This document shows, piece by piece, positions 43,362 to 63,699 of a stretch of DNA of 64,000 nt. The stretch's first letter is position 1; each line of letters begins with the position of its first letter. A model generated the notes under the pieces. The model saw only the letters and a program-made list of their open reading frames with translations. It was not told the DNA's origin and did no database searches. A program made the translations under genes and the position numbers. Source of the stretch: Bradyrhizobium sp. CCBAU 53340 (GTDB lineage: Bacteria; Pseudomonadota; Alphaproteobacteria; Rhizobiales; Xanthobacteraceae); NCBI RefSeq assembly GCF_015291645.1, contig NZ_CP030055.1, positions 2,356,001 through 2,420,000 on the forward strand, written 5' to 3'.

Positions 43362-43450
43362 GTTTCCTAAGCTCGGGATTTCCGAACGTTGCTGGTCAGA
43401 GAGCGTGCGGCAGCAGCTCATCCTTGTCCATCCGGAGACACGAGGCGGCA

Positions 43451-45187
43451 ATGAAGAAGGGCATTCTCGACCAGTTCGATTCATTCGAGTTTGCGTCCGA
43501 CGTCTTCGGTGCGGCGCCCTTGCCCTGGTTTGGGCCGTGGCAGGGTACGATGACCCATCAGGACCAGCCCACTGCGGTCCAGGTCAATCAGGGCATCGCG
43601 CCGGCTGCCGGTGCGAGCACGGTCGGTTCGGCAACGGTGGTGACGACCGGCGGGATCACGTTCGATCTCAACTTCACGGCCGCCGCGATGGCGGCACCCG
43701 CGAGCTTCCGTGCCGGCATCGTGCAAGCCGCTACCATGCTTGCCAATGTCATCTCGGACAAGATCACGGTCGACCTCAAGGTCGACTATCGCGGCACCGG
43801 CGGCGGTGCCGCGGCAGGTCCCGATGCCGGCCTCTACGACAGCTATTCGTTGATCCGGTCCGACCTGATCAAGACCGCAGCCGCAGGAGACACAACCTTC
43901 AACTATTTGCCCAACACGAGCACGATCCAGGGATCGTCGAACGTCGCGGTTTGGAACGCCGAGCTCAAGCTGTTCGGTCTGATGGGCGCCAACGACGCCA
44001 CGACGGACGACGGCAGCGCGGTTTTTGCGACCGACATCAATCCGAGCCTGCTCGTCGGAGTGGCGTTGCACGAACTGACCCACGCGCTCGGTCGCGTGCC
44101 TTACGGCTCGGCGCCCGACATCTTCGATCTGTTTCGCTTCACCAGTCCCGGTGTCCGGCTGTTCCAGGGTGGCAGCACCGCACCCGCCAGCTATTTCTCG
44201 CTCGACGGCGGCGTGACCAAGCTGGCCGATTTTGGCCAGCAATCCGATCCCAGCGACTTCCTCAATAGTGGCGTCCAGGGTGCGAACGATCCGTTCAACG
44301 AATTTTACACCGGCAGCACCAGCCAGACGCTGAGCAGCGTCGATCTCAAACTGCTGCACGCGCTGGGTTTCCACACCGGCAGCCCGGCCACGCCGCTGCC
44401 CGATCTCACGGTTAGCAATCTCAGCGTCATCGGGTCGACGATCGGCTTTTCCCTGAATGATACCGGATCGGCTGCCGCTGGTACATCGACGAGCGCGCTC
44501 TATCTGTCGACACATTCGACCGTGACCACCAGCGACACGTTGCTTGGGACCTATGCAGGCTCGAGCCTGGGGGCCGGTGCCTCGCAAAGCGAAAGCATCG
44601 CCTTCTCGCTGCCCTCGAACCTCGCCGCAGGGACCTATTATCTCGGCGTCATCGCCGACTACACCTCCAAGGTGGCCGAGAGCAACGAGACCAACAACAC
44701 GTCGAGCTCGATCACCGTCAGCGTCGGCAACGCCAACGCCAATACGATCTCGGGCAGCAACGCCATCATGTTCGGTCTGGCCGGCAACGATACGATCGTG
44801 AGCAATGGTGGAAACAACGTCATGGTCGGTGGCGCCGGCAATGACTCGCTTTATGGTGGCGCGGGCAATGACCAGTTCGTATTCAATGCGACCAGCGACG
44901 GTCTCGACCAGATCTACAACTTCCATGCCGGGGATCGGATCGAGTTCGCCGCAGCGGGCTTCGGTAGCCATCTGGCCGTAAGCGCCACCAACACCGGCGT
45001 GCTGGACGCATTCCATTTCGTCGCCAACGCAACTGGTCCGACCACGACCGCGCAGGAGTTCTGGTTCAATACGGCGACTCACACCCTGTATTTCGACGCC
45101 AACGGTTCGGCGCCGGGCGGCCAAGTCGCGATTGCGCACCTGCAGAACAGCTACGTGCTGCACAACACCGACATCGTCCTGGTGTGA
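43451..45187 (+). CDS. RTX metalloprotease-like protein with CARDB domain
   Basis: Large extracellular protein of 578 residues without a signal peptide, expected to leave by type I secretion. The zinc motif HELTHALGR lies at about residue 205. A CARDB adhesion-like domain follows (PDLTVSNLSVIGSTIGFSL; VIADYTSKVAESNETNN), then RTX nonapeptides (GLAGNDTIVSNGGNN; VGGAGNDSLYGGAGNDQF) and the typical C-terminal secretion region ending IVLV. ATG 43451 follows GAGGCGG. No T1SS transporter gene is in the window. Function: probably a calcium-dependent protease or adhesin. Monocistronic. Confidence 0.85.
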   Translation: MKKGILDQFDSFEFASDVFGAAPLPWFGPWQGTMTHQDQPTAVQVNQGIAPAAGASTVGSATVVTTGGITFDLNFTAAAMAAPASFRAGIVQAATMLANVISDKITVDLKVDYRGTGGGAAAGPDAGLYDSYSLIRSDLIKTAAAGDTTFNYLPNTSTIQGSSNVAVWNAELKLFGLMGANDATTDDGSAVFATDINPSLLVGVALHELTHALGRVPYGSAPDIFDLFRFTSPGVRLFQGGSTAPASYFSLDGGVTKLADFGQQSDPSDFLNSGVQGANDPFNEFYTGSTSQTLSSVDLKLLHALGFHTGSPATPLPDLTVSNLSVIGSTIGFSLNDTGSAAAGTSTSALYLSTHSTVTTSDTLLGTYAGSSLGAGASQSESIAFSLPSNLAAGTYYLGVIADYTSKVAESNETNNTSSSITVSVGNANANTISGSNAIMFGLAGNDTIVSNGGNNVMVGGAGNDSLYGGAGNDQFVFNATSDGLDQIYNFHAGDRIEFAAAGFGSHLAVSATNTGVLDAFHFVANATGPTTTAQEFWFNTATHTLYFDANGSAPGGQVAIAHLQNSYVLHNTDIVLV

Positions 45188-49649: not shown

Positions 49650-52253
49650 TTGGCGACCGCAGTCAACGTTAGTGCGACCAACAACGCAGACATCGACGGA
49701 ATGTTGGCCGGTGTCAAATGGTCCGGCACGATCAGCTATAGCTTCCCCAATTCGTCGACCACTTATGCCTATCCCTATTCCGGTGGCGACAGTGAGCCGA
49801 CCACGACAGGCTTTTCGTCTGCGCCAACCCAGATGCAGACTGCGATCAACTACGCCATTGCGCTGATCAAGAGCTACACCAACGCCAACATCAGTTATAA
49901 CGGCACCGGCTCCTCCGACATCATGGTCGCGCAGTCGCCGGCGGCCAACCCGACCTCCTATGCCTATTACCCCGGCAACTATGCGGCCGGCGGCGACGTC
50001 TGGTTTGGCACGCAATACGATTACACGCAGGCGCAGCTCGGCAATTACTATTTCACGACGGCGCTGCACGAGCTCGGTCATGCCTTCGGCCTCAAGCACA
50101 GCCAGGAAACCGGCGGCGTCGCCAACGTCGCGGTGCCGACCGCTCATGACGATAGCGAATACACCGTCATGAGCTATCGCAGCTATGTCGGCGCTCCGCT
50201 CACCGGCTATACCAATGAGCAGTATGGATATCCTGAGACCTATATGGCCAACGATATCCTCGCGCTCCAGACGCTGTATGGCGCGAACTACAACACCCAG
50301 AGCGGTAACACCGTCTACACCTGGAGCCCGACGACGGGGCAGGAATTTATAAACGGCGCCGGACAGCCTGCGGATGGTGGTGGCGTCGGCGGCTCGGCCA
50401 ATCGCATCTATGAGACGATCTGGGACGGTGGTGGCGTCAATACTTACGATCTGTCGAACTACACGACCGACCTGAGCATCAATCTCAATCCCGGCGCATC
50501 GTCGGTGTTCTCCACGACCCAGCTGGCCTATCTCGGCAACGGCCACTACGCGTCCGGCAACGTCTACAATGCCTATCTCTACAGTGGCGACGTACGCTCC
50601 TACATCGACAATGCCACGGGCGGCTCGGGCAACGACACCATCATCGGCAACGCCATTGCCAATGTTCTGAAGGGCGGCGCCGGCAACGACACCATCACCG
50701 GCGGCGGCGGCAACGATACCATCGATGGCGGTGCCGGCACGGATACGGCGGTGTATTCGGGGAATCAGGCCAACTACAGCATCTCGTACAATTCCACGAC
50801 GCATACGTTCACGATTGCCGATTTGCGATCAGGTTTACCTGATGGCGCCGATACGGTCACAAACGTCGAAAATTTCCAGTTCGCCGATGGGACTGTCGCG
50901 AGCGCGACGCTCATCAGCGAGCTTGCGCCGGTCACGATCGAGGCATTCGGTGTGACTAGCTTGGTGCAGGAGAACGGAAACTATTTCCTTGATCCGATTG
51001 GTGCTAGCTCCGGTCCCGAACTGAAGTATGGCGGTTCGGCCGTCTTTGCTGGACAGTTCGCCCCGTGGACACTGATTGGCGCCGAGCAGACCGCGACGGG
51101 TTACGAGATCGCTTTCAAGCAGCAGGGCACAAACTATTTCACGGTTTGGAATACCGACAGCTCGGGCAACTATGTGAGCAATCCAACCGGAATTGTGCTT
51201 GGCAGCAGTTCGGTTCTGGAGAATCTCGAGACTAGTTTCCATCAGGATCTGAATGGTGACAGTGCTATTGGTGTGCCGGCTGTGCTGTCTGGCACCATCT
51301 TAGAGGCCTACGGTTCAACCAGCTTGGTCCAAACTAGTAGTGGCTATTTCCTCGATCCAGTCGGCGGCGGCACGGGCCCGCAGTTGAAATATGGTGGTTC
51401 AGCTGTGATTCCTGGTCAGTTCGCCCCTTGGACACCGATCGGTGCAGAACAGACTACGACGGGCTACGAGATCGCATTCAAGCAGCCGGGCACAAACTAT
51501 TTCACGGTTTGGAATACCGACAGCTCGGGCAACTATGTGAGCAATCCAACCGGAATTGTGCTTGGCAGCAGTTCGGTTCTGGAGAATCTCGAGACTAGTT
51601 TCCATCAGGATCTGAATGGTGACAGTGTTATTGGTGTGCCGGCTGTGCTGTCTGGCACCATCTTAGAGGCCTACGGTTCAACCAGCTTGGTCCAAACTAG
51701 TAGTGGCTATTTCCTCGATCCAGTCGGCGGCGGCACGGGCCCGCAGTTGAAATATGGTGGTTCAGCTGTGATTCCTGGTCAGTTCGACCCTTGGACGCTG
51801 ATCGGCGCCGAGCAGACTGCGACAGGTTACGAGATCGCATTCAAGCAGCCGGGCACAAACTATTTCACGGTTTGGAATACCGACAACTCAGGCAACTATG
51901 TGAGCAATCCAACCGGAATTGTGCTTGGTAGCAGCTCGGCTTTAGAGAATGTGGAGACTAGTTTTCATCAAGACTTAAATGGAGACGGTGTCATGGGGCT
52001 ACCGTCGGCTTCTCCTAATCAAACATTCGCAAACGAGAATTTTTCTTTTAGCGGAGCGTCACTCACGCGAGCAGTAAGTTCCGATGGCATCGAAGCCTTG
52101 CGAGGGCCGGGCTCTCTCGTGTCGCACGAACAGCCCACTCTTTGGCACGAGTTGTTGGCGGGGGCTCATGAGCCAAACGCTACGCATGCTGCCCTTGATC
52201 CTCACAGCACTTACCATTTTGATAACCACCAAACTGATTTCATATTGCGCTAG
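49650..52253 (+). CDS. Serralysin-like RTX metalloprotease with three W-rich repeats
   Basis: Secreted zinc metalloprotease of 867 residues without a signal peptide, so a type I secretion substrate. The catalytic domain has ALHELGHAFGLKHS (zinc ligands, about residue 145) and the Met-turn YTVMSYRSYVG. RTX calcium repeats follow (GGSGNDTIIGNAIAN; GGAGNDTITGGGGNDTIDGGAGTD, about 328-370). Then three tandem copies of a 121-residue domain (EAxGxTSLVQ...YFLDP...W...YEIAFKQ...FTVWNT...SFHQDLNGDxxxG) like the tryptophan-rich C-terminal family. Start TTG 49650 with GGAG six bases upstream. The last 85 residues are unlike the repeats. Confidence 0.88.
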   Translation: MATAVNVSATNNADIDGMLAGVKWSGTISYSFPNSSTTYAYPYSGGDSEPTTTGFSSAPTQMQTAINYAIALIKSYTNANISYNGTGSSDIMVAQSPAANPTSYAYYPGNYAAGGDVWFGTQYDYTQAQLGNYYFTTALHELGHAFGLKHSQETGGVANVAVPTAHDDSEYTVMSYRSYVGAPLTGYTNEQYGYPETYMANDILALQTLYGANYNTQSGNTVYTWSPTTGQEFINGAGQPADGGGVGGSANRIYETIWDGGGVNTYDLSNYTTDLSINLNPGASSVFSTTQLAYLGNGHYASGNVYNAYLYSGDVRSYIDNATGGSGNDTIIGNAIANVLKGGAGNDTITGGGGNDTIDGGAGTDTAVYSGNQANYSISYNSTTHTFTIADLRSGLPDGADTVTNVENFQFADGTVASATLISELAPVTIEAFGVTSLVQENGNYFLDPIGASSGPELKYGGSAVFAGQFAPWTLIGAEQTATGYEIAFKQQGTNYFTVWNTDSSGNYVSNPTGIVLGSSSVLENLETSFHQDLNGDSAIGVPAVLSGTILEAYGSTSLVQTSSGYFLDPVGGGTGPQLKYGGSAVIPGQFAPWTPIGAEQTTTGYEIAFKQPGTNYFTVWNTDSSGNYVSNPTGIVLGSSSVLENLETSFHQDLNGDSVIGVPAVLSGTILEAYGSTSLVQTSSGYFLDPVGGGTGPQLKYGGSAVIPGQFDPWTLIGAEQTATGYEIAFKQPGTNYFTVWNTDNSGNYVSNPTGIVLGSSSALENVETSFHQDLNGDGVMGLPSASPNQTFANENFSFSGASLTRAVSSDGIEALRGPGSLVSHEQPTLWHELLAGAHEPNATHAALDPHSTYHFDNHQTDFILR
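50932..52020 (+). repeat. Three 363-bp tandem repeats inside the metalloprotease gene
   Basis: Period 363 bp (121 codons), checked by shared landmarks: ACAAACTATTTC at 51129, 51492 and 51855, and ATCAGGATCTGAATGG at 51241 and 51604. Units are roughly 50932-51294, 51295-51657 and 51658-52020. Copies 2 and 3 are nearly identical over their first about 130 bases; copy 1 is more diverged there but very close to copy 2 in the second half. Confidence 0.93.
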
Positions 52254-53040: not shown

Positions 53041-53811
53041 ATGAAGGTGGTCATTCTCGCGGGTGGTCTCGGCACCCGCATCGCCGAGGAGACCAGCACG
53101 CGGCCGAAGCCGATGGTCGAGATCGGCGGCCGGCCGATCCTCTGGCACATCATGAAGATCTACAGCCATTACGGCTTCCATGATTTCGTGATCTGCCTTG
53201 GCTACAAGGGCTACATGATCAAGGAGTACTTCGCGAACTACTTCCTGCACATGTCCGACGTGACGTTCCATCTCGCCGAGAACCGCATGGAGGTGCATCG
53301 CGAAGCCGCCGAGCCCTGGCGGGTGACGCTGGTTGACACCGGTGAGGAGACCCAGACCGGCGGCCGGCTGAAGCGGGTGCTGCCCTACGTCGCGAACGAG
53401 CCCTTCTTCGCACTGACCTATGGCGACGGTGTCGCCGACATCGATCTTGCCGCCGAGATCGCTTTCCACAAGGCGCATGGGCGGAGAGCGACCGTCTCGG
53501 TGGTGCGGCCGGCCAAGCGCTTTGGCGCGGTCGAGATCGAGGGCGACCGCGTCGTCAATTTCGAGGAGAAGCCGAATGATGACGGTGGCTGGATCAATGG
53601 CGGCTTCTTCCTGCTGTCGCCCTCGGTCGGCGACCTGATCACCGGCGACAAGACGATCTGGGAGCGCGAGCCGATGGAGCAACTCGCCCGCGGTGACGAT
53701 CTGCGCGCCTTTGTGCATCCCGGCTTCTGGCATCCGATGGATTCGCTGCGCGATCGCAACTTCCTCGAGGGCGAGTGGGCGGGCAACCGCGCGAAGTGGA
53801 GGATCTGGTGA
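53041..53811 (+). CDS. rfbF: Glucose-1-phosphate cytidylyltransferase
   Basis: Makes CDP-glucose from glucose-1-phosphate and CTP, first step to CDP-deoxy sugars of LPS. 256 residues: nucleotide loop VILAGGLGTRIAEETSTRPKP, GGRPILWHIMKIYSHYG, TYGDGVADIDL (metal Asp), NFEEKPNDDGGWINGGFF and FWHPMDSLRDRNFLEG at the end, all typical. Start ATG 53041 after GGGAGTAGG; the frame upstream to 52840 is AT-rich and non-coding. The end overlaps rfbG (GTGA). Confidence 0.96.
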   Translation: MKVVILAGGLGTRIAEETSTRPKPMVEIGGRPILWHIMKIYSHYGFHDFVICLGYKGYMIKEYFANYFLHMSDVTFHLAENRMEVHREAAEPWRVTLVDTGEETQTGGRLKRVLPYVANEPFFALTYGDGVADIDLAAEIAFHKAHGRRATVSVVRPAKRFGAVEIEGDRVVNFEEKPNDDGGWINGGFFLLSPSVGDLITGDKTIWEREPMEQLARGDDLRAFVHPGFWHPMDSLRDRNFLEGEWAGNRAKWRIW

Positions 53812-54860
53812 CGGATTCGGCATTCTGGCGCGGCAAGAAGGTCTTTCTCACTGGGCACACCGGCTTCAAGGGCGCGTGGGCCTCGCTGCTGCTGCGCCGG
53901 ATGGGAGCCGAGGTCTACGGATACGCGCTGGCACCGACGCATCCATCCTCCCTGTTCGTGACGGCGCGGATCGCCGACGACATCAGGCACCGCATCGCCG
54001 ACATCCGCGATCTCTCCACCTTGCGCGCCGCGATGGCAGAGGCCGCGCCCGACGTCGTCATTCACATGGCTGCGCAGGCGCTGGTGCGTCAGTCCTACGA
54101 GGAGCCGGTCGAGACCTTCGCGACCAACGTGATGGGCACGGTGCATGTGCTGGAGGCTGCACGGCAGCTCCGCTCCGTGCAGGTGATCCTGAACGTCACC
54201 AGCGACAAGTGCTACGAGAACATTGGCGCCGGCGCAGCCTTTCGTGAAGGCGATCGTCTCGGCGGCGATGATCCCTACAGCAACAGCAAGGCCTGCGCCG
54301 AGCTGGTGACGCATTCCTACCGCCACAGCTTCTACAATGCCGAGGGAGCGGCGCGCGTCGCGACCGCACGCGCCGGCAACGTGTTCGGCGGCGGCGACTG
54401 GGCGCGCGACCGCCTGGTGCCCGATGCGATGCAGGCGTTCCTCGATGGGCAGGCGCTGCGCATCCGCAATCCCCATTCGGTGCGGCCCTGGCAGCACGCG
54501 CTCGATCCGGTGCTCGGCTATCTCACGCTGGTCGAGCGGCTGGCGGGCGACGAAGGCCTCGCAGGCGGCTGGAATTTCGGACCCGATGCGGCCAGCGAGG
54601 TGCCGGTCGGAACCGTGGTCGAGCGTCTGATCGCGCTGTGGGGCGATGGAGCGCGCTGGACGGCGGATGCCGGCCGGCATCCGCACGAAGCCGCCTATCT
54701 CAGGCTCGACTGCACCAAGGCGCGCAGCGAGCTCGGCTGGACCCCGCGGCTCGACCTCGCACAGGGCCTGCGGCTGACAGTGGATTGGTACAAGGCGCTG
54801 CGCGAGGGGCGTGACCTGCGTAAATTCTCGCTCGATCAACTCGATCAGGTCGTCGCGTAA
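53808..54860 (+). CDS. rfbG: CDP-glucose 4,6-dehydratase
   Basis: Converts CDP-glucose to CDP-4-keto-6-deoxyglucose. 350 residues, extended SDR: GHTGFKGAWASLLL near the N-terminus, NVTSDKCYENI, and the family-specific DDPYSNSKACAELVT active-site helix; RAGNVFGGGDWARDRLVPD follows, then RNPHSVRPWQHALDPVLGYL. GTG start overlaps the rfbF stop, with GGAGG upstream. The usual next gene (rfbH, 3-dehydratase) is absent; instead a transketolase pair and an SDR follow within 4 kb. Confidence 0.96.
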   Translation: MTDSAFWRGKKVFLTGHTGFKGAWASLLLRRMGAEVYGYALAPTHPSSLFVTARIADDIRHRIADIRDLSTLRAAMAEAAPDVVIHMAAQALVRQSYEEPVETFATNVMGTVHVLEAARQLRSVQVILNVTSDKCYENIGAGAAFREGDRLGGDDPYSNSKACAELVTHSYRHSFYNAEGAARVATARAGNVFGGGDWARDRLVPDAMQAFLDGQALRIRNPHSVRPWQHALDPVLGYLTLVERLAGDEGLAGGWNFGPDAASEVPVGTVVERLIALWGDGARWTADAGRHPHEAAYLRLDCTKARSELGWTPRLDLAQGLRLTVDWYKALREGRDLRKFSLDQLDQVVA

Positions 54861-54867
54861 GCGACGC

Positions 54868-55758
54868 TTAGAGCGGGAGCTGCAAAATCTCGGTGATGCG
54901 GGCCTCGGCAGATACCGCATGCTTCAGATATGCGCCCGAGCAGACCGCGAGGTAGGATTTGAGCAGGACGACGAGGGCAAGGATCGCGCGCTCGATGTCG
55001 GGCGCAAGGCCGGTCCGGCCGAACGCCGCCGTTTGCAGGAACGGCCGGTTTTCCATGAAGGTCAACCAGTAGAGATAGTCGTAGCCGTCGATCCCGAGGA
55101 ATGCGTCTTCCCAGTCGATGATTCGCGGCTCGGCGCCATCAAGCATGATGTTCTTCGGTCCGAAGTCGCCATGGCAGAGCGTTGTGGGCAGGGTTGGATA
55201 ACGCTCTTCAAGCACCGACATCAACAGGCGCAATTCGGTTGCGCTTGCCTGTTCCAGTAGGTCGCGTTCCGAAAGCGTCTTTAGGGCTCGTGTGGCGGTC
55301 GACAGATAGTGTTGGAACGTGGGGAGATCGTCCGGCTGCCAATCGGCGAGCCGCTCATGGCATCCGTGCATCAGCGCGGCGGCATCCGCGGGCTGCATCG
55401 GACCCGGCAGCGGTGTGAGTGCGGGCATCAGGAGGCACAGCCGCGCGGACCCGTCCCCGAGCGTAACCTCGAAGCGGTCGCGCACGACCGTGTCGCCGTA
55501 GAGCCGGATGAGAATGTCGATTTCCCTGGCAAGGCTCGCACGGGCGTCTCGGCCCGGAAGATGCGTCTTCAGAAACCGCTTCTCGCCGGCGATCTCCGCA
55601 TCGAAGCAGATGCCGAGCGTGCCGCCGAGTGCCGGCGTCACGCTCGTAGCGCGGCTGTCTGATTGCAGATGCCGCTGAAGCGCGGGCAGGATGGCCGCGC
55701 GGTCGGCGGCAATGTCGATGCGGTCGCAGGTTTCGAAAAACGCGATCTTACCCAGCAC
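54868..55758 (-). CDS. APH/choline-kinase-like phosphotransferase
   Basis: Small-molecule kinase fold of 296 residues: an N-lobe (LGGTLGICFDAEIAGEKRFLKTHL) and C-lobe with the catalytic loop LCHGDFGPKNIMLD and the metal site IIDWEDAFLG, followed by a long helical end. This is the aminoglycoside/homoserine/choline kinase superfamily. In a glycan locus it more likely phosphorylates a sugar or carrier than an antibiotic. Start GTG 55758 overlaps the end of the upstream sulfotransferase by eleven bases, indicating coupling; the longer frame to 55971 is arginine-rich and non-coding. Convergent with rfbG. Confidence 0.8.
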   Translation of the reverse strand: MLGKIAFFETCDRIDIAADRAAILPALQRHLQSDSRATSVTPALGGTLGICFDAEIAGEKRFLKTHLPGRDARASLAREIDILIRLYGDTVVRDRFEVTLGDGSARLCLLMPALTPLPGPMQPADAAALMHGCHERLADWQPDDLPTFQHYLSTATRALKTLSERDLLEQASATELRLLMSVLEERYPTLPTTLCHGDFGPKNIMLDGAEPRIIDWEDAFLGIDGYDYLYWLTFMENRPFLQTAAFGRTGLAPDIERAILALVVLLKSYLAVCSGAYLKHAVSAEARITEILQLPL

Positions 55759-56701
55759 GATAGAGCGGGCCCAGATAGTCGATCTGGTCGTAGCCGAAAT
55801 GGCGGGCCAGCGCCGCGGTGCCCTGTGCGATCTGCCTGCGCTCGTCGTCCGAGAGTTCCTCGATGACGGCCTTGTTGTAGTCCTTGGTGCTCTTGAGCAC
55901 GGTTCCCCAGGGCGCGATGGAATCCCTGATCTCGACGCCGTTCCAGCTCGGATAGAGCATGCTGTCGGCAAAGGGCACGCCGATGAAGTTCGCGGCTTCC
56001 GTCATGAACTTGCGCTTGTCCTCGACGAGGTCCTCATAGCGGAAGATGCGCACATTCTTCGGATACATCTTGGCGAACATCTCGACGGTCGAGTGATAGA
56101 TGTTCCAGGTGATCAGGTATTTCGTTAGCGGCTGCGGGAACGGCCGGCGCTTGGTGTCACGATAGGCCGAGAACGGATTGCGCACGATGTGCAGGATGCG
56201 GATGTCAGGGAAGTCGCGCACTATGCGGTCGGCGTCGATGCCGATGGCCGGCGAGTAGCCGACATGGACCATGCCCGGACGCGGCTTGGTGTAGTAGTTC
56301 TCCCATGCCGCGAAGGTCGAGCGGAAATACGCCTCGACCACCTGGCGGCGGAAGATCGGCGGCTCGCCGACGATGCGGGCGAATTCGGCGACGCGCTTCT
56401 TCTCGTCCATCACGCAGTCGGCATCACGGAACTTGGAGCCGTTGCGCTTGCGCAGGAAGGTCTTCAGCTCTTCGTCGATCATCTGCTCGTAGAGCTCGAT
56501 CGCCGTCAGCCCTTCCGGGAATTCGGGATAGCGGTACTGGACGCGCTCGACGGAAGCGAGGAAGTCGTTGAAGTTGCGGTTGCCGAGCTGCGACTCGAAG
56601 GGATAGACGAGCAGGTCGGGATGGCCGTCGAAGTGACGGTGGGTGACGTTGCCGCCGTGCTCGAAGCCCGCGGAAACCATGGCCAGCCTGAAGTCACTCA
56701 T
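55748..56701 (-). CDS. Sulfotransferase-family protein
   Basis: Transfers sulfate from PAPS, probably to a glycan. 317 residues. The N-terminus has a short strand-loop (LAMVSAGFEHGGN) in the place of the 5'-phosphosulfate loop but without a classical GTSK; the 3'-phosphate site is clear (IRILHIVRNPFSAYRDTKRR: Arg-Asn-Pro and Ser), followed by NVRIFRYEDLVEDKRKFM and AANFIGVPF, standard for the family. No signal peptide or membrane segment, so cytosolic. Coupled to the kinase-like gene. It may decorate LPS or exopolysaccharide. Confidence 0.8.
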   Translation of the reverse strand: MSDFRLAMVSAGFEHGGNVTHRHFDGHPDLLVYPFESQLGNRNFNDFLASVERVQYRYPEFPEGLTAIELYEQMIDEELKTFLRKRNGSKFRDADCVMDEKKRVAEFARIVGEPPIFRRQVVEAYFRSTFAAWENYYTKPRPGMVHVGYSPAIGIDADRIVRDFPDIRILHIVRNPFSAYRDTKRRPFPQPLTKYLITWNIYHSTVEMFAKMYPKNVRIFRYEDLVEDKRKFMTEAANFIGVPFADSMLYPSWNGVEIRDSIAPWGTVLKSTKDYNKAVIEELSDDERRQIAQGTAALARHFGYDQIDYLGPLYRAG

Positions 56702-56874
56702 TCACCTACCCCTGTATCGTCGAAGTCAATTCTGGGCCCCCGTTTAGCTGCATGGGCCGGATAATCAAGCGCAGATGGTGCCCCCGGGAGCCCGTCCCCA
56801 GCCCCAACCCGGCGCCCCGGCAATTCCGATACGGGACATTGACGGGCCTCTGCGGCTGATCTACCCGGGGCGCC

Positions 56875-57792
56875 ATGCGTATTTTCGTGACCGGCGCGAG
56901 CGGGTTTCTGGGCTCCTATCTCGTTGCTGACCTGCTGGGGCGGGGGCACGAAGTGGCGGTCCTGCTGCGCCCCGACAGGGCTCCTTGGCGCCTTCAAGAG
57001 GCCATTGGCCGTCTGAAGGTGATTCATGGCGCTCTGGAGCGTCTGGACGGGCTGCGTGGGCCTCTGGAGGCGTTCGCGCCCGAGGCGATCGTTCATATGG
57101 CTTGGCGTGGCGTCGCCGGCAGCGACCGCAACAGCCCCGACCAGGCCGTCAATGTTGCCGATACGGTCGGGCTGGCCGACCTCGCCGCCAGCGTGGACGC
57201 CAAAGTCTTCGTGGGGGCCGGATCGCAGGCCGAGTATGGCCCCTATGATCGCGCGATTCGCGAGGACGATATCACCCGGCCGACGACGCTCTACGGCATG
57301 GCCAAGCTCGCGGCGGGATCGATGGTGCTGCGCCTTTGCGAGGAGCGAGGGCTGCGCGCGGCGTGGCTGCGGATCTTCTCGACCTACGGTCCGAGGGATG
57401 CCGATTATTGGCTGATCCCGAGCATGATCCGGAACCTGCGCTCCGGGCAGCACATGGCGCTGACGGCGTGCGAGCAGCGCTGGGGATTTCTGCACGCACG
57501 CGATGCGGCCGCGGCCTTCCGGCTCGCGGTCGCCCACGATGCTGCGCGGGGCATTTTCAACGTCGGCAGTCCGGATGCGCCGCCACTGCGCGAGACGGTG
57601 ACGAAGCTGCGCGATCTCGTCGATCCCCGCGCGAGCCTCGGCTTCGGCGAGTTGGCCTACCGGCCCGATCAGGTTATGGTCCTGGCGGCGGACGTTTCGC
57701 GCATGCGCGCAATGGGCTGGAAGCCCGAAGTGCCGTTGGATGAGGGACTACGCGAAACGGTTGACTGGCATGACGCGACCAAATCTTCCTGA
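56875..57792 (+). CDS. NAD-dependent epimerase/dehydratase in CDP-sugar locus
   Basis: Extended SDR of 305 residues: VTGASGFLGSYLVADLL, HMAWRGVAG, a Tyr-Lys in TLYGMAKLAAGS and LRIFSTYGPRDADYWLIP, HARDAAAAFRLAV. Sugar-nucleotide 4-epimerase, 4-reductase or similar; substrate not clear from the sequence, though proximity to rfbG and the transketolase pair points to a CDP-4-keto or branched product. It overlaps the next gene (transketolase N) by 23 bases, so they form an operon. Confidence 0.87.
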   Translation: MRIFVTGASGFLGSYLVADLLGRGHEVAVLLRPDRAPWRLQEAIGRLKVIHGALERLDGLRGPLEAFAPEAIVHMAWRGVAGSDRNSPDQAVNVADTVGLADLAASVDAKVFVGAGSQAEYGPYDRAIREDDITRPTTLYGMAKLAAGSMVLRLCEERGLRAAWLRIFSTYGPRDADYWLIPSMIRNLRSGQHMALTACEQRWGFLHARDAAAAFRLAVAHDAARGIFNVGSPDAPPLRETVTKLRDLVDPRASLGFGELAYRPDQVMVLAADVSRMRAMGWKPEVPLDEGLRETVDWHDATKSS

Positions 57793-58588
57793 ACCGATTG
57801 AGTTCGCCCGCCGGATCCGCGCGCATGCCTTGCGGATGGTGCACGCCGCCAAGGCCTCGCATATCGGCGGCTGCCTCTCGATGGCGGACATCCTGGCGGT
57901 GCTCTACACGCGGACCCTGCGCCTTGATCCTGCCGAGCCGCAAAGTCCGGGCCGCGACCGCTTCGTGCTGAGCAAGGGGCACGCCACTGCGATCATGTAC
58001 GCCACGCTCGCCGAATGCGGTTTCTTCTCCCTGGCCGAGCTCGATACCTATTGCCGCGACGGCTCGATCCTCACCGGTCACGTCAGCCATGCCGTTCCCG
58101 GCGTCGAGGTCTCGACCGGCTCGCTCGGCCATGGCTTGCCGATCGCGATCGGCATGGCGCTCGCCGCGCGTTCCGCAGGCCTCGGCAGCCGCGTGTTCTG
58201 CCTGCTCAGCGACGGCGAGTGCGACGAGGGCTCCAATTGGGAAGGCATCCTGTTTGCTCCCCATCACAAGCTCGACAATCTCTGCGTCATCGTCGACTTC
58301 AACAAGATCCAGAGCTTCGGCTCGGTCGCCGAGGTGCTCAACCTCGATCCTTTTGCCGACAAATGGAAATCGTTCGGCTGGCATGTCGAGGAGATCGACG
58401 GTCATGATGTCGTTGCGCTCGAGCGCGTGCTGGGCGGCGTGCCTGTCACGACGGGTCGGCCGACCGTGGTGATCGCCCACACCGTCAAGGGCAAGGGCGT
58501 GAGCTTCATGGAGAACAAGCTCGAATGGCACTACCGTTCGCCCTCGGATGAGTTGCTCGCGCAGGCGCTGGCCGAGGTCGGCGCATGA
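57770..58588 (+). CDS. Transketolase, N-terminal (thiamine diphosphate) subunit
   Basis: N-terminal half of a split transketolase, 272 residues: HAAKASHIGGCLSMADILAVLY, LSKGHATAIMYATLAE, GSLGHGLPIAIGMALAAR, and the thiamine-diphosphate magnesium loop LSDGECDEGSNWEGILFAPHH (GDGE...N type). It needs the C-terminal subunit encoded next. ATG 57770 is used; TTG 57740 would extend it. Overlaps the C-subunit by ATGA. A dedicated split transketolase inside a glycan locus is not the housekeeping enzyme of the pentose phosphate pathway. Confidence 0.9.
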   Translation: MTRPNLPEPIEFARRIRAHALRMVHAAKASHIGGCLSMADILAVLYTRTLRLDPAEPQSPGRDRFVLSKGHATAIMYATLAECGFFSLAELDTYCRDGSILTGHVSHAVPGVEVSTGSLGHGLPIAIGMALAARSAGLGSRVFCLLSDGECDEGSNWEGILFAPHHKLDNLCVIVDFNKIQSFGSVAEVLNLDPFADKWKSFGWHVEEIDGHDVVALERVLGGVPVTTGRPTVVIAHTVKGKGVSFMENKLEWHYRSPSDELLAQALAEVGA

Positions 58589-59508
58589 GGACGACGTTCA
58601 TCGAAAGCCTCTCGCAGGCGGCGAGCGAAAACCCTGATATCTGGCTGCTCTGCGGCGATCTCGGCTATTCCGTGCTGGAGCCGTTCGCGGCGAAGTTTCC
58701 CGACCGGTACCTCAATGTCGGCGTCGCCGAGCAGAACATGGCCGGCATCGCCGCCGGCATCGCGCTGTCGGGCAAGACGGTGTTCATCTACTCGATCGGT
58801 AATTTCCCGACGCTGCGCTGTCTCGAGCAGCTCCGCAACGACGTCTGCTATCACGGTGCCGACGTCAAGGTGGTGGCGGTCGGCGCCGGCTATGCCTATG
58901 GCAGCCAGGGTTACACCCACCACGCGCTGGAAGACGCCGGCATCATGTCGATGCTGCCCGGTATCGAGGTGTTCGTGCCATGCGATCCCATGGAGGTCCG
59001 CGCCGCGACGCGCCTGATCGCAGGCAGCGGCAAGCCGTCGTATTTGCGGCTCAGCCGGCAGGGGGAGCCGAATCTTGGCGCCGCCATGATGGACCTGCGC
59101 AAGCCGCGGATCCTGCGCGAGGGACGAGATGTCGTCATATTCGCATCCGGGCCGATCGCTTCGCGCGCGATGGAGGCAGCCCGCGAGCTTGCCGGGCGCG
59201 GCCGAGATGTCGGGGTGGTCAGCGTCTCCTGCCTGAAGCCGCTTGACGAGGCGGCGATCCGTGATGCGGTGCGCGGCGCATCGCTCGTCGTGACGCTGGA
59301 AGAGCATATCCTGCGTGGCGGTCTGTTCAGCCTGGTGGCGGGCGCATTCGCCGGCGAAGCGAGGCGGCCGCCGGTTACTGGCATCGGCATTCCCGAGCAG
59401 GGCGGCAAGACATCGAGTGCGGGTTCGCGCGATGCGCTGCTCGATGCCGCCGGCCTGTCCGTGTCGGCGATCGCCGCGCGGATCGAGCAGTCGCTGGCGA
59501 AGCGATAG
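58585..59508 (+). CDS. Transketolase, C-terminal subunit
   Basis: Pyrimidine-binding and C-terminal domains of the split transketolase, 307 residues. LLCGDLGY, NVGVAEQNMAGIAAGIALSG (catalytic Glu and aminopyrimidine contact), VKVVAVGAGYAYGSQGYTHHALEDAGIMSMLPG, PSYLRLSRQGEP, then a C-domain with VSVSCLKPLDEAAIRDA. Complete. Start ATG overlaps the N-subunit stop. The two proteins together form the active site. Donor and acceptor are unknown here. Confidence 0.92.
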   Translation: MRTTFIESLSQAASENPDIWLLCGDLGYSVLEPFAAKFPDRYLNVGVAEQNMAGIAAGIALSGKTVFIYSIGNFPTLRCLEQLRNDVCYHGADVKVVAVGAGYAYGSQGYTHHALEDAGIMSMLPGIEVFVPCDPMEVRAATRLIAGSGKPSYLRLSRQGEPNLGAAMMDLRKPRILREGRDVVIFASGPIASRAMEAARELAGRGRDVGVVSVSCLKPLDEAAIRDAVRGASLVVTLEEHILRGGLFSLVAGAFAGEARRPPVTGIGIPEQGGKTSSAGSRDALLDAAGLSVSAIAARIEQSLAKR

Positions 59509-59509
59509 T

Positions 59510-60463
59510 CTAGGATGAGGGCGGGTCGAAATTGACGCGCTCGCGTTCAAACACCACGGGCTTCTCGCGCACCTGTCCGTAGATCGCGAGCACGTATTCG
59601 CCGATCATGCCCATGAAGAACAATTGTACGCCGCCGAAGAAGAACATGGCGACGATCAAGGTGAGAATGCCGGGTTCGGCGAGCTTCTGATAGAGCACGA
59701 GGCCGATGATGAAGTTGACGACCGCGTAGGCGATGCTCACCGCCGAGATCAGGAAGCCCGCGAACAGGCCGAAGCGGACAGGCGCCGTGGTGAAGGACAC
59801 CAGCCCGTTGAGGCCCTGGTCGATCAGCGCGCTGGCGCGGTTCTTCGAAAAGCCCTTCTTGCGCTCACGCCAGGTGTAGGGCACGCCGACCATGCGGCCG
59901 CCGCACTCGAACGTCATCATCCGCATGAAGGGGTAGGCGTCGCGGACGTGCCGCATGGCTTCGACGACGCGCCTGTCGACGAGTTGGAAGTCGCCGACGC
60001 CTGGTGGCACCTGGAGCTCGGAGAAGCGGGTCAGCACGCGATAATACGCGTCACGGAGCCCACGCATCAGGCGGCCTTCTTCCCGGACGGCGCGGATGCC
60101 GTAGACGATCTCGTTGCCCGCCTCCCACAGCTTGACGAATTGCGGCAGCAGCTCGGGCGGGTCCTGGAGATCCGCAGGCATGAACAGCAGCACGGCATCG
60201 CCCGTGCTCGCCATCACCCCGTTATAGGTATTGCGTAGCGGCCCGAAATTGCGGGCGTTGACGATGACCTTCACCGAGGGATCTCGTGCGGCGATCTCGC
60301 GCAGGATTTCCACGGTGCGATCGTCCGAGGCGTTGTCGCAGAAGATGTGTTCGCGCTGATAGCCCTTGAGGTCGTTGTCGAAGATCTGTCGGATTGCCTC
60401 GTAGCAATCCCGTACATTCAGCTCTTCATTGTAGCAGGGCGTGATAACGCTGATTGTTTTCAC
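59510..60463 (-). CDS. GT2 glycosyltransferase, DPM1/GtrB-like
   Basis: Transfers a sugar from a nucleotide to a polyprenyl phosphate at the inner membrane. 317 residues: TISVITPCYNEELNVRDCYEAI, an Asp-rich acceptor site FCDNASDDRTVEI, MPADLQDPPELLPQF (DxD region), a TWRERKKGFSKNRAS-type catalytic loop, then two C-terminal membrane helices (FGLFAGFLISAVSIAYAVVNFIIGLV; GILTLIVAMFFFGGVQLFFMGM) ahead of GEYVLAIYGQVREKP. Start GTG 60463, seven bases after GGGGA; GTG 60466 and an upstream start are alternatives. Confidence 0.9.
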   Translation of the reverse strand: MKTISVITPCYNEELNVRDCYEAIRQIFDNDLKGYQREHIFCDNASDDRTVEILREIAARDPSVKVIVNARNFGPLRNTYNGVMASTGDAVLLFMPADLQDPPELLPQFVKLWEAGNEIVYGIRAVREEGRLMRGLRDAYYRVLTRFSELQVPPGVGDFQLVDRRVVEAMRHVRDAYPFMRMMTFECGGRMVGVPYTWRERKKGFSKNRASALIDQGLNGLVSFTTAPVRFGLFAGFLISAVSIAYAVVNFIIGLVLYQKLAEPGILTLIVAMFFFGGVQLFFMGMIGEYVLAIYGQVREKPVVFERERVNFDPPSS

Positions 60464-60673
60464 CACTGAATCCCCGATGAAGATGACATTGAGCACACGC
60501 CTTGTTGTGATACGGGGCATACGTCGCAAATTTAGAATTGACCAAGAGTGTTAAACTTGAGAAGACAAGGGCGGACCTGACACGAAGTTAAGAAGGAAAC
60601 TAGCGCCTTGCCGTCGCCTGTCTACTTCTCCGATTGAGTTTCGACTGATACCAAATCCGGCTGAGATCAAACA

Positions 60674-62637: not shown

Positions 62638-63699
62638 ATGATTAGGGTTGGCCTGCTTGGCTGTGGGCGCATAGCCAAGCGTCACGCCGATTTGTTGGGC
62701 GGTGGGCACATCAACGGTGCGGTACTGGCCGCCGTTTGCGACGAAGTCCCGGAGCGTGCAAATCAATTCGCCAGCCGGTACGCGGTTCCCGGGGTTCACA
62801 ACCTCGCGGATTTCCTCGGTCGGACCGACGTGGATGTCGTTTCCGTTCTGACGCCGAGCGGATTGCATGCGGTGCATGCGATCGGGGTCGCGAGGGCGGG
62901 CAAGCACATCATCGTCGAAAAGCCCATGGCCCTGCGCCTGGCGGACGCCGACGCGATGATCCAGGCTTGCGATGCCGCCGGGGTGAAGCTGTTCGTGGTG
63001 AAGCAGAACCGCTTCAACGTTCCGGTCGTGAAGGCGCGCGAGGCGCTGCTGGCCGGTAGGTTCGGCAAGTTGATCCTCGGCACCGTACGTGTGCGATGGT
63101 GCCGGGATCAGTCCTATTACGATCAGGACAAATGGCGTGGGACCTGGGCCTACGATGGCGGAGTCCTTGCCAATCAAGCCAGCCATCACGTCGATATGCT
63201 CGAATGGTTTTTCGGCGACGTCGTCAGCGTACATGCGCGAGCGGCAACGGCGCTCGTAAACATCGAGGCCGAGGACACAGTCGTCGCGACCTTGCAGTTT
63301 CGCAACGGCGCCCTCGGCGTCATCGAGGCTACGACGGCGGTGCGACCGAAAGATCTGGAAGGCTCGCTCTCGATCCTCGGCGAGAAGGGGACGGTGGAGA
63401 TTGCGGGTTTCGCGGTCAACAAGATCCGGCACTGGCAATTTCGTGACGAGCTGCCTTCCGACGCCGATGTCTTCGAAAACTTTTCGGTCAATCCCCCCAA
63501 TGTGTACGGGTTCGGGCATCAAGCCTATTACGAGCATGTCGTCGATTGCTTGAGCAACCAGAGCCCGGCGCTGGTCGATGGGCTCGAGGGGCGCAAGAGC
63601 CTCGAACTCATCTCGGCTCTTTACGAATCCATTGAGACCGGCAAGGAAGTCGAGCTCCACTTCAATCCAAAGCGGTGCCGGCTGGGCGAGACATCATGA
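62638..63699 (+). CDS. Gfo/Idh/MocA oxidoreductase, WbpB/WlbA-like
   Basis: NAD-dependent sugar-nucleotide oxidase of 353 residues. IRVGLLGCGRIAKRHADLL nucleotide loop, SVLTPSGLHAVHAIGVARAGKHIIVEKPMALR (catalytic Lys in EKP), then QASHHVDMLEWFFGDVVSV with active-site His. This pattern is typical of WbpB/WlbA, which oxidise the 3-position of UDP-N-acetyl-hexosaminuronate on the way to di-N-acetylated uronates. The next gene overlaps by ATGA and is the matching acyltransferase. The aminotransferase step (WbpE) must lie to the right of the window. Confidence 0.9.
   Translation: MIRVGLLGCGRIAKRHADLLGGGHINGAVLAAVCDEVPERANQFASRYAVPGVHNLADFLGRTDVDVVSVLTPSGLHAVHAIGVARAGKHIIVEKPMALRLADADAMIQACDAAGVKLFVVKQNRFNVPVVKAREALLAGRFGKLILGTVRVRWCRDQSYYDQDKWRGTWAYDGGVLANQASHHVDMLEWFFGDVVSVHARAATALVNIEAEDTVVATLQFRNGALGVIEATTAVRPKDLEGSLSILGEKGTVEIAGFAVNKIRHWQFRDELPSDADVFENFSVNPPNVYGFGHQAYYEHVVDCLSNQSPALVDGLEGRKSLELISALYESIETGKEVELHFNPKRCRLGETS

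Follow-up and report, generated by a model that had tools for sequence, protein, structure and literature searches.

The closest described system to the locus analysed here is the yersiniose A pathway of Yersinia pseudotuberculosis, which, in the part of the source that treats it, requires ddhA-D, yerE and yerF (PMC4509608). Our locus lies in Bradyrhizobium sp. CCBAU 53340 (NZ_CP030055.1, positions 2,356,001 to 2,420,000; this whole stretch of 64,000 nucleotides is called the window below). It contains rfbF (ddhA), rfbG (ddhB), a short-chain dehydrogenase/reductase (SDR) gene, the genes tktN and tktC of a split transketolase (TK), and a GT2 glycosyltransferase gene (Table 1). The two systems have in common CDP-glucose activation and 4,6-dehydration, thiamine diphosphate (ThDP)-dependent C2 branching at C4, which is predicted for the window, and an SDR beside the branching enzyme. 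A yersiniose-type version also occupies the corresponding locus in 11 sister genomes. In contrast to yersiniose A, the branching enzyme of the window would be a split TK and not the acetohydroxyacid synthase-like YerE, rfbH is missing, the expected branch is hydroxyacetyl instead of acetyl, and sulfotransferase and kinase genes are added. Our comparison makes it fairly probable that this is a C-branching cassette of the yersiniose type, with the split TK standing in for YerE (and for rfbH) and adding a hydroxyacetyl group at C4. The comparative argument is strong, and the chemistry is predicted from sequence.

TKs have also been proposed to transfer a hydroxyacetyl group onto a keto sugar for miharamycin and amipurimycin (PMC12247030, section 2.3). 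As in the window, a two-gene TK is proposed for this step in Streptomyces; those TKs serve antibiotics, whereas the class of the window TK is associated with CDP-sugar genes across many phyla. In its passages on these enzymes, the same review (PMC12247030, 2025) presents keto-sugar-accepting TKs as proposals only and counts 13 split-gene TK candidates, all in Streptomycetes and none characterised in vitro. YerE-like enzymes are described there as serving mainly cell structures such as lipopolysaccharide (LPS), whose branching is ascribed mainly to them. The nearest solved structures belong to the split TK of Carboxydothermus hydrogenoformans (6yaj, 6yak), which has the same two-chain architecture. 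The bioinformatic study behind the 13 candidates is reportedly Krug 2024. Among the titles and abstract openings of the open-licence literature, with subscription papers mostly outside, we found no TK that branches a CDP sugar and none in the bradyrhizose cluster. A yersiniose-type branching cassette with a split TK in YerE's place appears to be new. The evolutionary swap of YerE and RfbH for a split TK, with the SDR kept, would let nature's own variants be compared and could serve directly for experiments.

Exchange with the YerE-type locus

Both RfbF and RfbG exceed the curated cut-offs of their families (Table 1), so the predicted route to CDP-4-keto-6-deoxyglucose is well supported. An earlier reading of the window made from its letters (the sequence-only reading) had already called both genes complete and rfbH absent, and both statements hold. 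In the whole genome (8.7 Mb, two contigs), none of six NF011936 matches was at or over the cut-off, which rules out relocation of rfbH, and tblastn with an RfbH query found no relative in the window. The same reading placed the SDR and the two-subunit TK in one operon. Among the plus-strand genes after rfbG (SDR, tktN and tktC), the overlap run consists of SDR-tktN-tktC only, with an ATGA overlap joining tktN and tktC. The five genes together are not one operon, as a kinase-like gene and a sulfotransferase-family gene on the minus strand, both unmentioned in that reading, sit between rfbG and SDR.

The distribution of the cassette was determined in a sample of 265 Bradyrhizobium genomes. tktN of at least 73% identity was present in 31 genomes (the next match had 60%). 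The listed coordinates of rfbG and tktN differed by 3.7-5.7 kb in all 31, so their proximity is more than chance. rfbG of at least 74% identity was present in 45 genomes, 30 with this tktN and 15 without it. Besides the window, 18 of 30 TK loci were examined (L062-L079). By tblastn, rfbF, rfbG, the kinase, sulfotransferase and SDR genes, tktN, tktC and GT2 were all present in 17 of 17 loci (L063-L079). The most distant locus, L062 (73%), has the whole set minus the kinase, with the sulfotransferase on the cassette's own strand. From position 1137, L062 (genome G064) also carries a second, distant split-TK pair (30-35% identical) less than 8 kb from the cassette.

We examined each of the 15 tktN-negative loci in which rfbG is at least 74% identical, together with three whose rfbG is more distant, over 18 kb or as far as the contig reached. 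The order rfbF-rfbG-RfbH-YerE-like-SDR-GT2 was found in 11 of the 15 (L167-L177); neither a YerE-like enzyme nor a TK was found in the three loci with more distant rfbG. RfbH of L175 scored 712 bits against a cut-off of 423, and the other ten were 89-94% identical to it. The YerE-like ThDP protein (585 amino acids) belongs to the acetolactate-synthase family and scored below the NCBIfam acetolactate synthase cut-offs. Its top two PDB matches were 5ahk and 8rph, which we take to be the YerE-like PpYerE and JanthE. Structures of YerE-like enzymes are also mentioned in a passage of the review (PMC12247030). As the 11 sister loci read in this order, the TK stands at the place of the yersiniose-type branching enzyme.

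The surroundings of the two enzymes were also compared. In all 11 YerE-type loci an SDR directly follows the YerE-like gene (64-67% identical to the window SDR) and a GT2 is present (83-88% identical to the window GT2). The kinase-like gene occurs in all 17 of L063-L079, is absent from L062, and occurs in 0 of the 11 YerE-type loci; the sulfotransferase gene occurs in the 17 and in L062, and again in 0 of the 11. At the DNA level, L064 (TK) and L168 (YerE) are 87% identical over 6.7 kb, ending at the end of rfbG. Beyond rfbG they match only in SDR (69%), GT2 (82%) and a 3.7 kb downstream flank (84%), and L064 alone has an extra 2.2 kb between the GT2 and flank matches. The comparison of the window with L173 gave a similar pattern. 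Of the 18 TK loci compared (the window and L063-L079), ten share both flanks with YerE-type loci. The window SDR, in which a YxxxK and a Gly-rich NAD(P) motif can be read by eye, can be tentatively placed in the YerF position by its likeness to the SDR following the YerE-like gene in the sister loci.

At E values up to 1e-200, the YerE-like gene was present in 13 of 265 genomes, of which the exchanged loci account for 11; that of genome G102 had 58% identity. It was found in 0 of 31 TK genomes, and the window genome had no match at E<=1e-130 or 1e-200. This non-overlap between genomes is weak evidence, because only about 1.5 shared genomes are expected from 31 and 13 of 265; it is the shared locus that carries the argument. 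The hypergeometric values for these co-occurrences take no account of relatedness among the genomes. In 398 sampled genomes of the phylum, four had a YerE-like gene (E up to 1e-130). One of these four loci, L181, reads RfbH-YerE-SDR-GT2, with the SDR 39% identical.

These neighbours also bear on another explanation, namely that rfbF, rfbG and SDR produce an ordinary CDP-6-deoxyhexose, with the SDR as 4-ketone reductase, and that the split TK supplies the polysaccharide with a separate component, an unrelated ketose or sugar phosphate. Polysaccharide clusters do mix pathways, 4-ketoreductases belong to the SDR family, and many related split TKs are found in loci without rfbFG. However, SDR and tktN overlap, a 64-67% identical SDR follows YerE in every exchanged locus, rfbG accompanies tktN in 31 of 31 genomes, and three full-length canonical transketolases are encoded elsewhere in the genome. 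We regard this explanation as unlikely and prefer a yersiniose-type branching cassette.

Active site and proposed pathway of the split transketolase

By Pfam matches and residues, the window TK has the ThDP-binding N half, the pyrimidine/C half, the catalytic Glu and the donor His of a split TK. The best PDB match of tktN is 6yak, a split transketolase N-chain (6.7e-77), and that of tktC is 6yaj (3.6e-54). An alignment of 92 TKs from glycan clusters with the three canonical transketolases of the window genome was read in E. coli numbering; the R358 and S385 columns, near the TktN/TktC junction, were left out. The residues at H26, H100, E411 and H473 were kept in 92 of 92 TKs and that at H66 in 91 (one X); these positions presumably serve ThDP and donor handling. 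The H461 position was Gly in all 92 and D469 was kept in none, so that window TktC has G and Q where the three canonical enzymes have H and D. We take H461 and D469 to bind the acceptor phosphate and hydroxyl of a phosphorylated hydroxyaldehyde. By alignment, the Carboxydothermus TK keeps the THAG...GEDG acceptor motif, which is lost in window TktC. Our reading of this pattern is that hydroxyacetyl transfer is probably retained and phosphosugar-acceptor recognition probably lost. A pentose-phosphate role of the window TK was rejected in view of the three canonical enzymes elsewhere and the lost acceptor residues.

The following pathway is proposed. According to their family assignment, which is strong, RfbF and RfbG would convert glucose-1-phosphate to CDP-4-keto-6-deoxyglucose. 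TktN and TktC would transfer hydroxyacetyl (C2) from a ketose or hydroxypyruvate via ThDP to the C4 carbonyl, giving a tertiary alcohol; position, exchange and the retained donor residues argue for this step. YerF is the branch reductase of the yersiniose pathway, and the place of the SDR after YerE in sister loci suggests that it may reduce the branch ketone to CDP-6-deoxy-4-C-(1,2-dihydroxyethyl)hexose. Since there is no rfbH, the C3 hydroxyl should stay, and the product would be a hydroxylated yersiniose analogue without 3-deoxygenation. GT2, whose matches to NF047588 (4e-51) and NF007986 (3.5e-34) are each under the cut-off, would pass the sugar into a surface glycan, perhaps via polyprenyl phosphate. 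More speculatively, the sulfotransferase might decorate the branch CH2OH that only the TK route would introduce, because it is seen with TK loci and in none of the 11 YerE-type loci, whose products would be without that hydroxyl. On this pathway, many bacteria are expected to contain yersiniose analogues that are hydroxylated and perhaps also sulfated.

The sequence-only reading had suggested that the TK could add glycolaldehyde (C2) units to the 4-keto carbon of the CDP sugar. Addition of C2 at C4 is strongly supported by the comparison; one unit, giving a branched octose, suffices for the window, and a ten-carbon product is not needed. Alternatively, the TK might use the CDP sugar, or a compound derived from it, but attack a different carbon or transfer a different donor fragment, and so give another branched or chain-extended sugar. 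Donor and acceptor positions are not readable from sequence, and for YerE-like relatives, ErwE among them, the review describes other donors (PMC12247030). In contrast, RfbF and RfbG place the ketone at C4, and a CDP-4-keto sugar is also the substrate of YerE. Such a deviation from hydroxyacetyl transfer to C4 is quite improbable in our view.

Related split transketolases beyond the genus

A scan with the TktN alignment over named hosts gave at least 580 matching stretches. The best-scoring 80 are described here; they are not a random sample, and three of them are from Bradyrhizobium. The closest among these 80 was the tktN of Bradyrhizobium sp. YR681 (94%). The hosts include Rhodoplanes, Paramagnetospirillum, Nitrobacter, Geobacter, Paenibacillus, Limnohabitans and Polynucleobacter, as well as planctomycetes, acidobacteria, actinobacteria and three archaeal bins. 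rfbF (at least 40% identity) was found in 26 loci, rfbG (at least 40%) in 18 and RfbH (at least 45%) in 18, so that 29 of 80 had at least one of the three; a YerE-like enzyme (at least 40%) was found in 0 of 80. RfbH was first called by a sequence motif and was family-checked at L136, L110 and L150 (714-743 bits).

A tree of 100 TK rows was built by a quick search, with SH-aLRT support only and two long branches. Twenty of the 29 rows in the sector that holds the window TK (support 92) are CDP-linked, nine of these from Bradyrhizobium. The five rows of this sector labelled as having no CDP genes are all on 3.0-11.2 kb stretches that end at most 4.4 kb upstream of tktN. In a second sector, 43 of 46 rows are without CDP genes. 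A third sector of 11 rows has seven CDP-linked rows and four with rfbF or RfbH alone. The CDP label changes 13 times on the tree versus 25.4 times for shuffles (0 of 500 as low), a clustering that is inflated by near-copies.

Several observations weigh against a branching cassette of this kind. Four of the 15 tktN-negative loci (L163-L166) have rfbF-rfbG with neither a YerE-like gene nor a TK in 18 kb, and 8 of the 18 TK loci do not have both flanks in common with a YerE-type locus (at most 1.3 kb of upstream flank and no downstream flank). At three of the four more distant YerE loci, an SDR of this kind is missing within 1.5 kb. In the window itself, two reverse-strand genes part rfbFG from the SDR and the TK. 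The loss of H461 and D469 is also seen in TKs of non-CDP loci and in five other aligned split TKs, and is therefore not specific to a CDP-keto acceptor. Among the 80 named loci, 51 had no rfbF, rfbG or RfbH at the thresholds used; 18 of these loci span less than 12 kb, and another DegT aminotransferase is present in 28 of the 51. The TK family is therefore not exclusive to CDP sugars. We found neither an enzyme activity nor a sugar structure for any cassette-bearing strain.

In five inspected loci without CDP genes, the neighbours include sugar-transferase, RmlA/RmlC-like or TylF-like genes, named by eye. A second large group of split TKs (L099, L100, L116, L123, L131, L137 and others) lies near a non-RfbH DegT aminotransferase without rfbFG, and some members adjoin a sugar transferase or a TylF-like methyltransferase. 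L140, from Micrarchaeota archaeon CG1_02_49_24, has two split-TK pairs together with rfbF, rfbG-like and RfbH genes on one stretch.

Bradyrhizose and neighbouring genes

In strain ORS285, disruption of gdh abolishes bradyrhizose, and the genes of bradyrhizose synthesis were called unknown in 2016 (Busset et al., PMC4743980). Exact matches to both published gdh primers occur in L043 (genome G246), and the other 81 loci compared have none. The ORS285 rfaL primer has an exact match, 45 kb away, in G246 alone of 11 genomes, and G246 is therefore taken to be ORS285. The ORS278 rfaL primer was not specific, with matches of up to 2 mismatches in 8 of 11 genomes. In L043 a split TK follows gdh, its tktN beginning about 50 bp after the end of gdh (Table 1). 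The succession gdh, tktN, tktC on one strand is seen at L043:8784-11593, L049:8470-11293 and L057:8570-11379. The phenotype of the gdh insertion may thus include polar loss of the downstream TK. A gdh orthologue (1e-80) was present in 16 of 265 genomes, in 15 of them with tktN directly adjoining; G169, the remaining genome, has only 283 bases of contig downstream of the gdh match. Reaction-centre genes were found in 10 of the 16. The gdh-linked tktN and tktC are 50-53% and 38-39% identical to those of the window, with about 53% for the tktN of ORS285.

The cluster in L049 has eleven genes: HldE-like, RmlA/HddC-like, SDR, GmhA-like, gdh, tktN, tktC, zinc alcohol dehydrogenase, an unassigned protein, APH-type kinase and methyltransferase. 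These names rest on NCBIfam matches below the curated whole-protein-family cut-offs. Like the window, the bradyrhizose cluster of photosynthetic Bradyrhizobium (gdh locus of ORS285) has a 4,6-dehydratase-like SDR adjoining a split TK, another SDR and an APH-type kinase. Unlike the window, it has HldE-like, GmhA-like and RmlA/HddC-like genes in place of rfbF, and its dehydratase is only 26-28% identical to that of the window. According to the part of PMC9912281 that deals with it, ring closure of the bradyrhizose aldehyde is possible at O4, O5 or O9, the O9 form being a pyranose. Because O9 closure gives a pyranose, we infer a C4-C9 bond and hence a tertiary carbinol at C4, which is the outcome expected from ThDP carboligation at a C4 ketone. 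The split TK beside gdh would place a specific C-C bond-forming enzyme in the bradyrhizose cluster. As a tentative generalisation, which we hold possible but somewhat short of an even chance, a large class of split TKs in surface-glycan clusters across phyla may be branching enzymes of nucleotide-keto sugars, evolutionarily interchangeable with YerE. The same chemistry may build the C4 tertiary carbinol of bradyrhizose, with the gdh phenotype perhaps partly polar.

The sequence-only reading had suggested bradyrhizose, a ten-carbon sugar formed by two C2 additions, as the product of the window locus itself. The split TK directly downstream of gdh in the published cluster and the reaction-centre genes in 6 of 31 window-type genomes are in line with this idea. 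In contrast, the window genome has no gdh orthologue at 1e-80 and no photosynthetic reaction centre gene (PF00124, present in 27 of the 265 genomes). Allowing up to 3 mismatches, neither ORS285 gdh primer matched the window, and the one compared with the whole genome did not match there either. The nucleotidyltransferase, isomerase and dehydratase of the bradyrhizose cluster differ, and gdh and window-type tktN occur together in 0 of 265 genomes. Bradyrhizose or another ten-carbon product of this locus is highly improbable; since gdh and the reaction centre gene are missing, the window was rejected as the bradyrhizose locus, which it probably is not. In the tree, the eight bradyrhizose-type TK rows group in a separate clade (99), so the window would be a relative in kind that belongs to another pathway. 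The suggestion of a TK in bradyrhizose synthesis was nevertheless right in spirit, as gdh of ORS285 lies directly upstream of another split TK, and the link is indirect.

Table 1. Positions of the cassette genes in the window and of the gdh-linked genes in L043
Feature	Position	Strand	Evidence
rfbF (ddhA), glucose-1-phosphate cytidylyltransferase	53041..53811	+	TIGR02623 426.9 bits, cut-off 300.25
rfbG (ddhB), CDP-glucose 4,6-dehydratase	53796..54860	+	TIGR02622 450.2 bits, cut-off 278.45
APH-type kinase-like gene	54868 to about 55758	-	PF01636 2.6e-15
Sulfotransferase-family gene	55748-56701	-	PF13469 9.2e-11
Extended SDR, proposed YerF-position branch-ketone reductase	56875..57792	+	PF01370 4.8e-40
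tktN, ThDP-binding half of split TK, 272 amino acids	57770..58588	+	Transketolase_N PF00456 4.8e-45
tktC, pyrimidine-binding and C-terminal half of split TK	58585..59508	+	PF02779 (Transket_pyr) 5.4e-31, PF02780 (Transketolase_C) 2e-21
GT2 glycosyltransferase, ArnC/PgfS type, conserved cassette end	59510..60529	-	PF00535 1.2e-27
gdh of ORS285	L043:10598-11593 (without stop codon)	-	located by published primers
tktN of ORS285	L043:9704-10546	-	after gdh
tktC of ORS285	L043:8784-9707	-	after tktN

Three starts in Table 1 differ from those of the longest open reading frames. For rfbG, whose longest frame runs from 53775, a GTG start was assumed; the TIGR02622 match begins at residue 17 of the long frame. 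The start of the kinase-like gene (longest frame 54868-55971) was set via its orthologue in L063. The longest frame of tktN runs from 57740, and its start is probably at 57770, because many orthologues have a stop codon just 5' of that Met.

Elsewhere in the window genome there are two other split N-halves, at G000:C1:3165815 (L005) and G000:C2:297782 (L006), which are near-identical to each other and distant in the tree from the glycan-type TKs. Upstream of rfbF, the window encodes large metallopeptidase-like proteins (43424-45187 and 49650-52253), with Gly/Asp-rich and repeated stretches by eye; a similar metallopeptidase-like protein follows rfbG in L163. Two alike Gfo/Idh/MocA-type oxidoreductases (window 62638-63699 and L009:14393-15454) bracket flippase-, HisF- and amidotransferase-like genes, also named by eye, which suggests that a larger surface-polysaccharide cluster runs on beyond the window.

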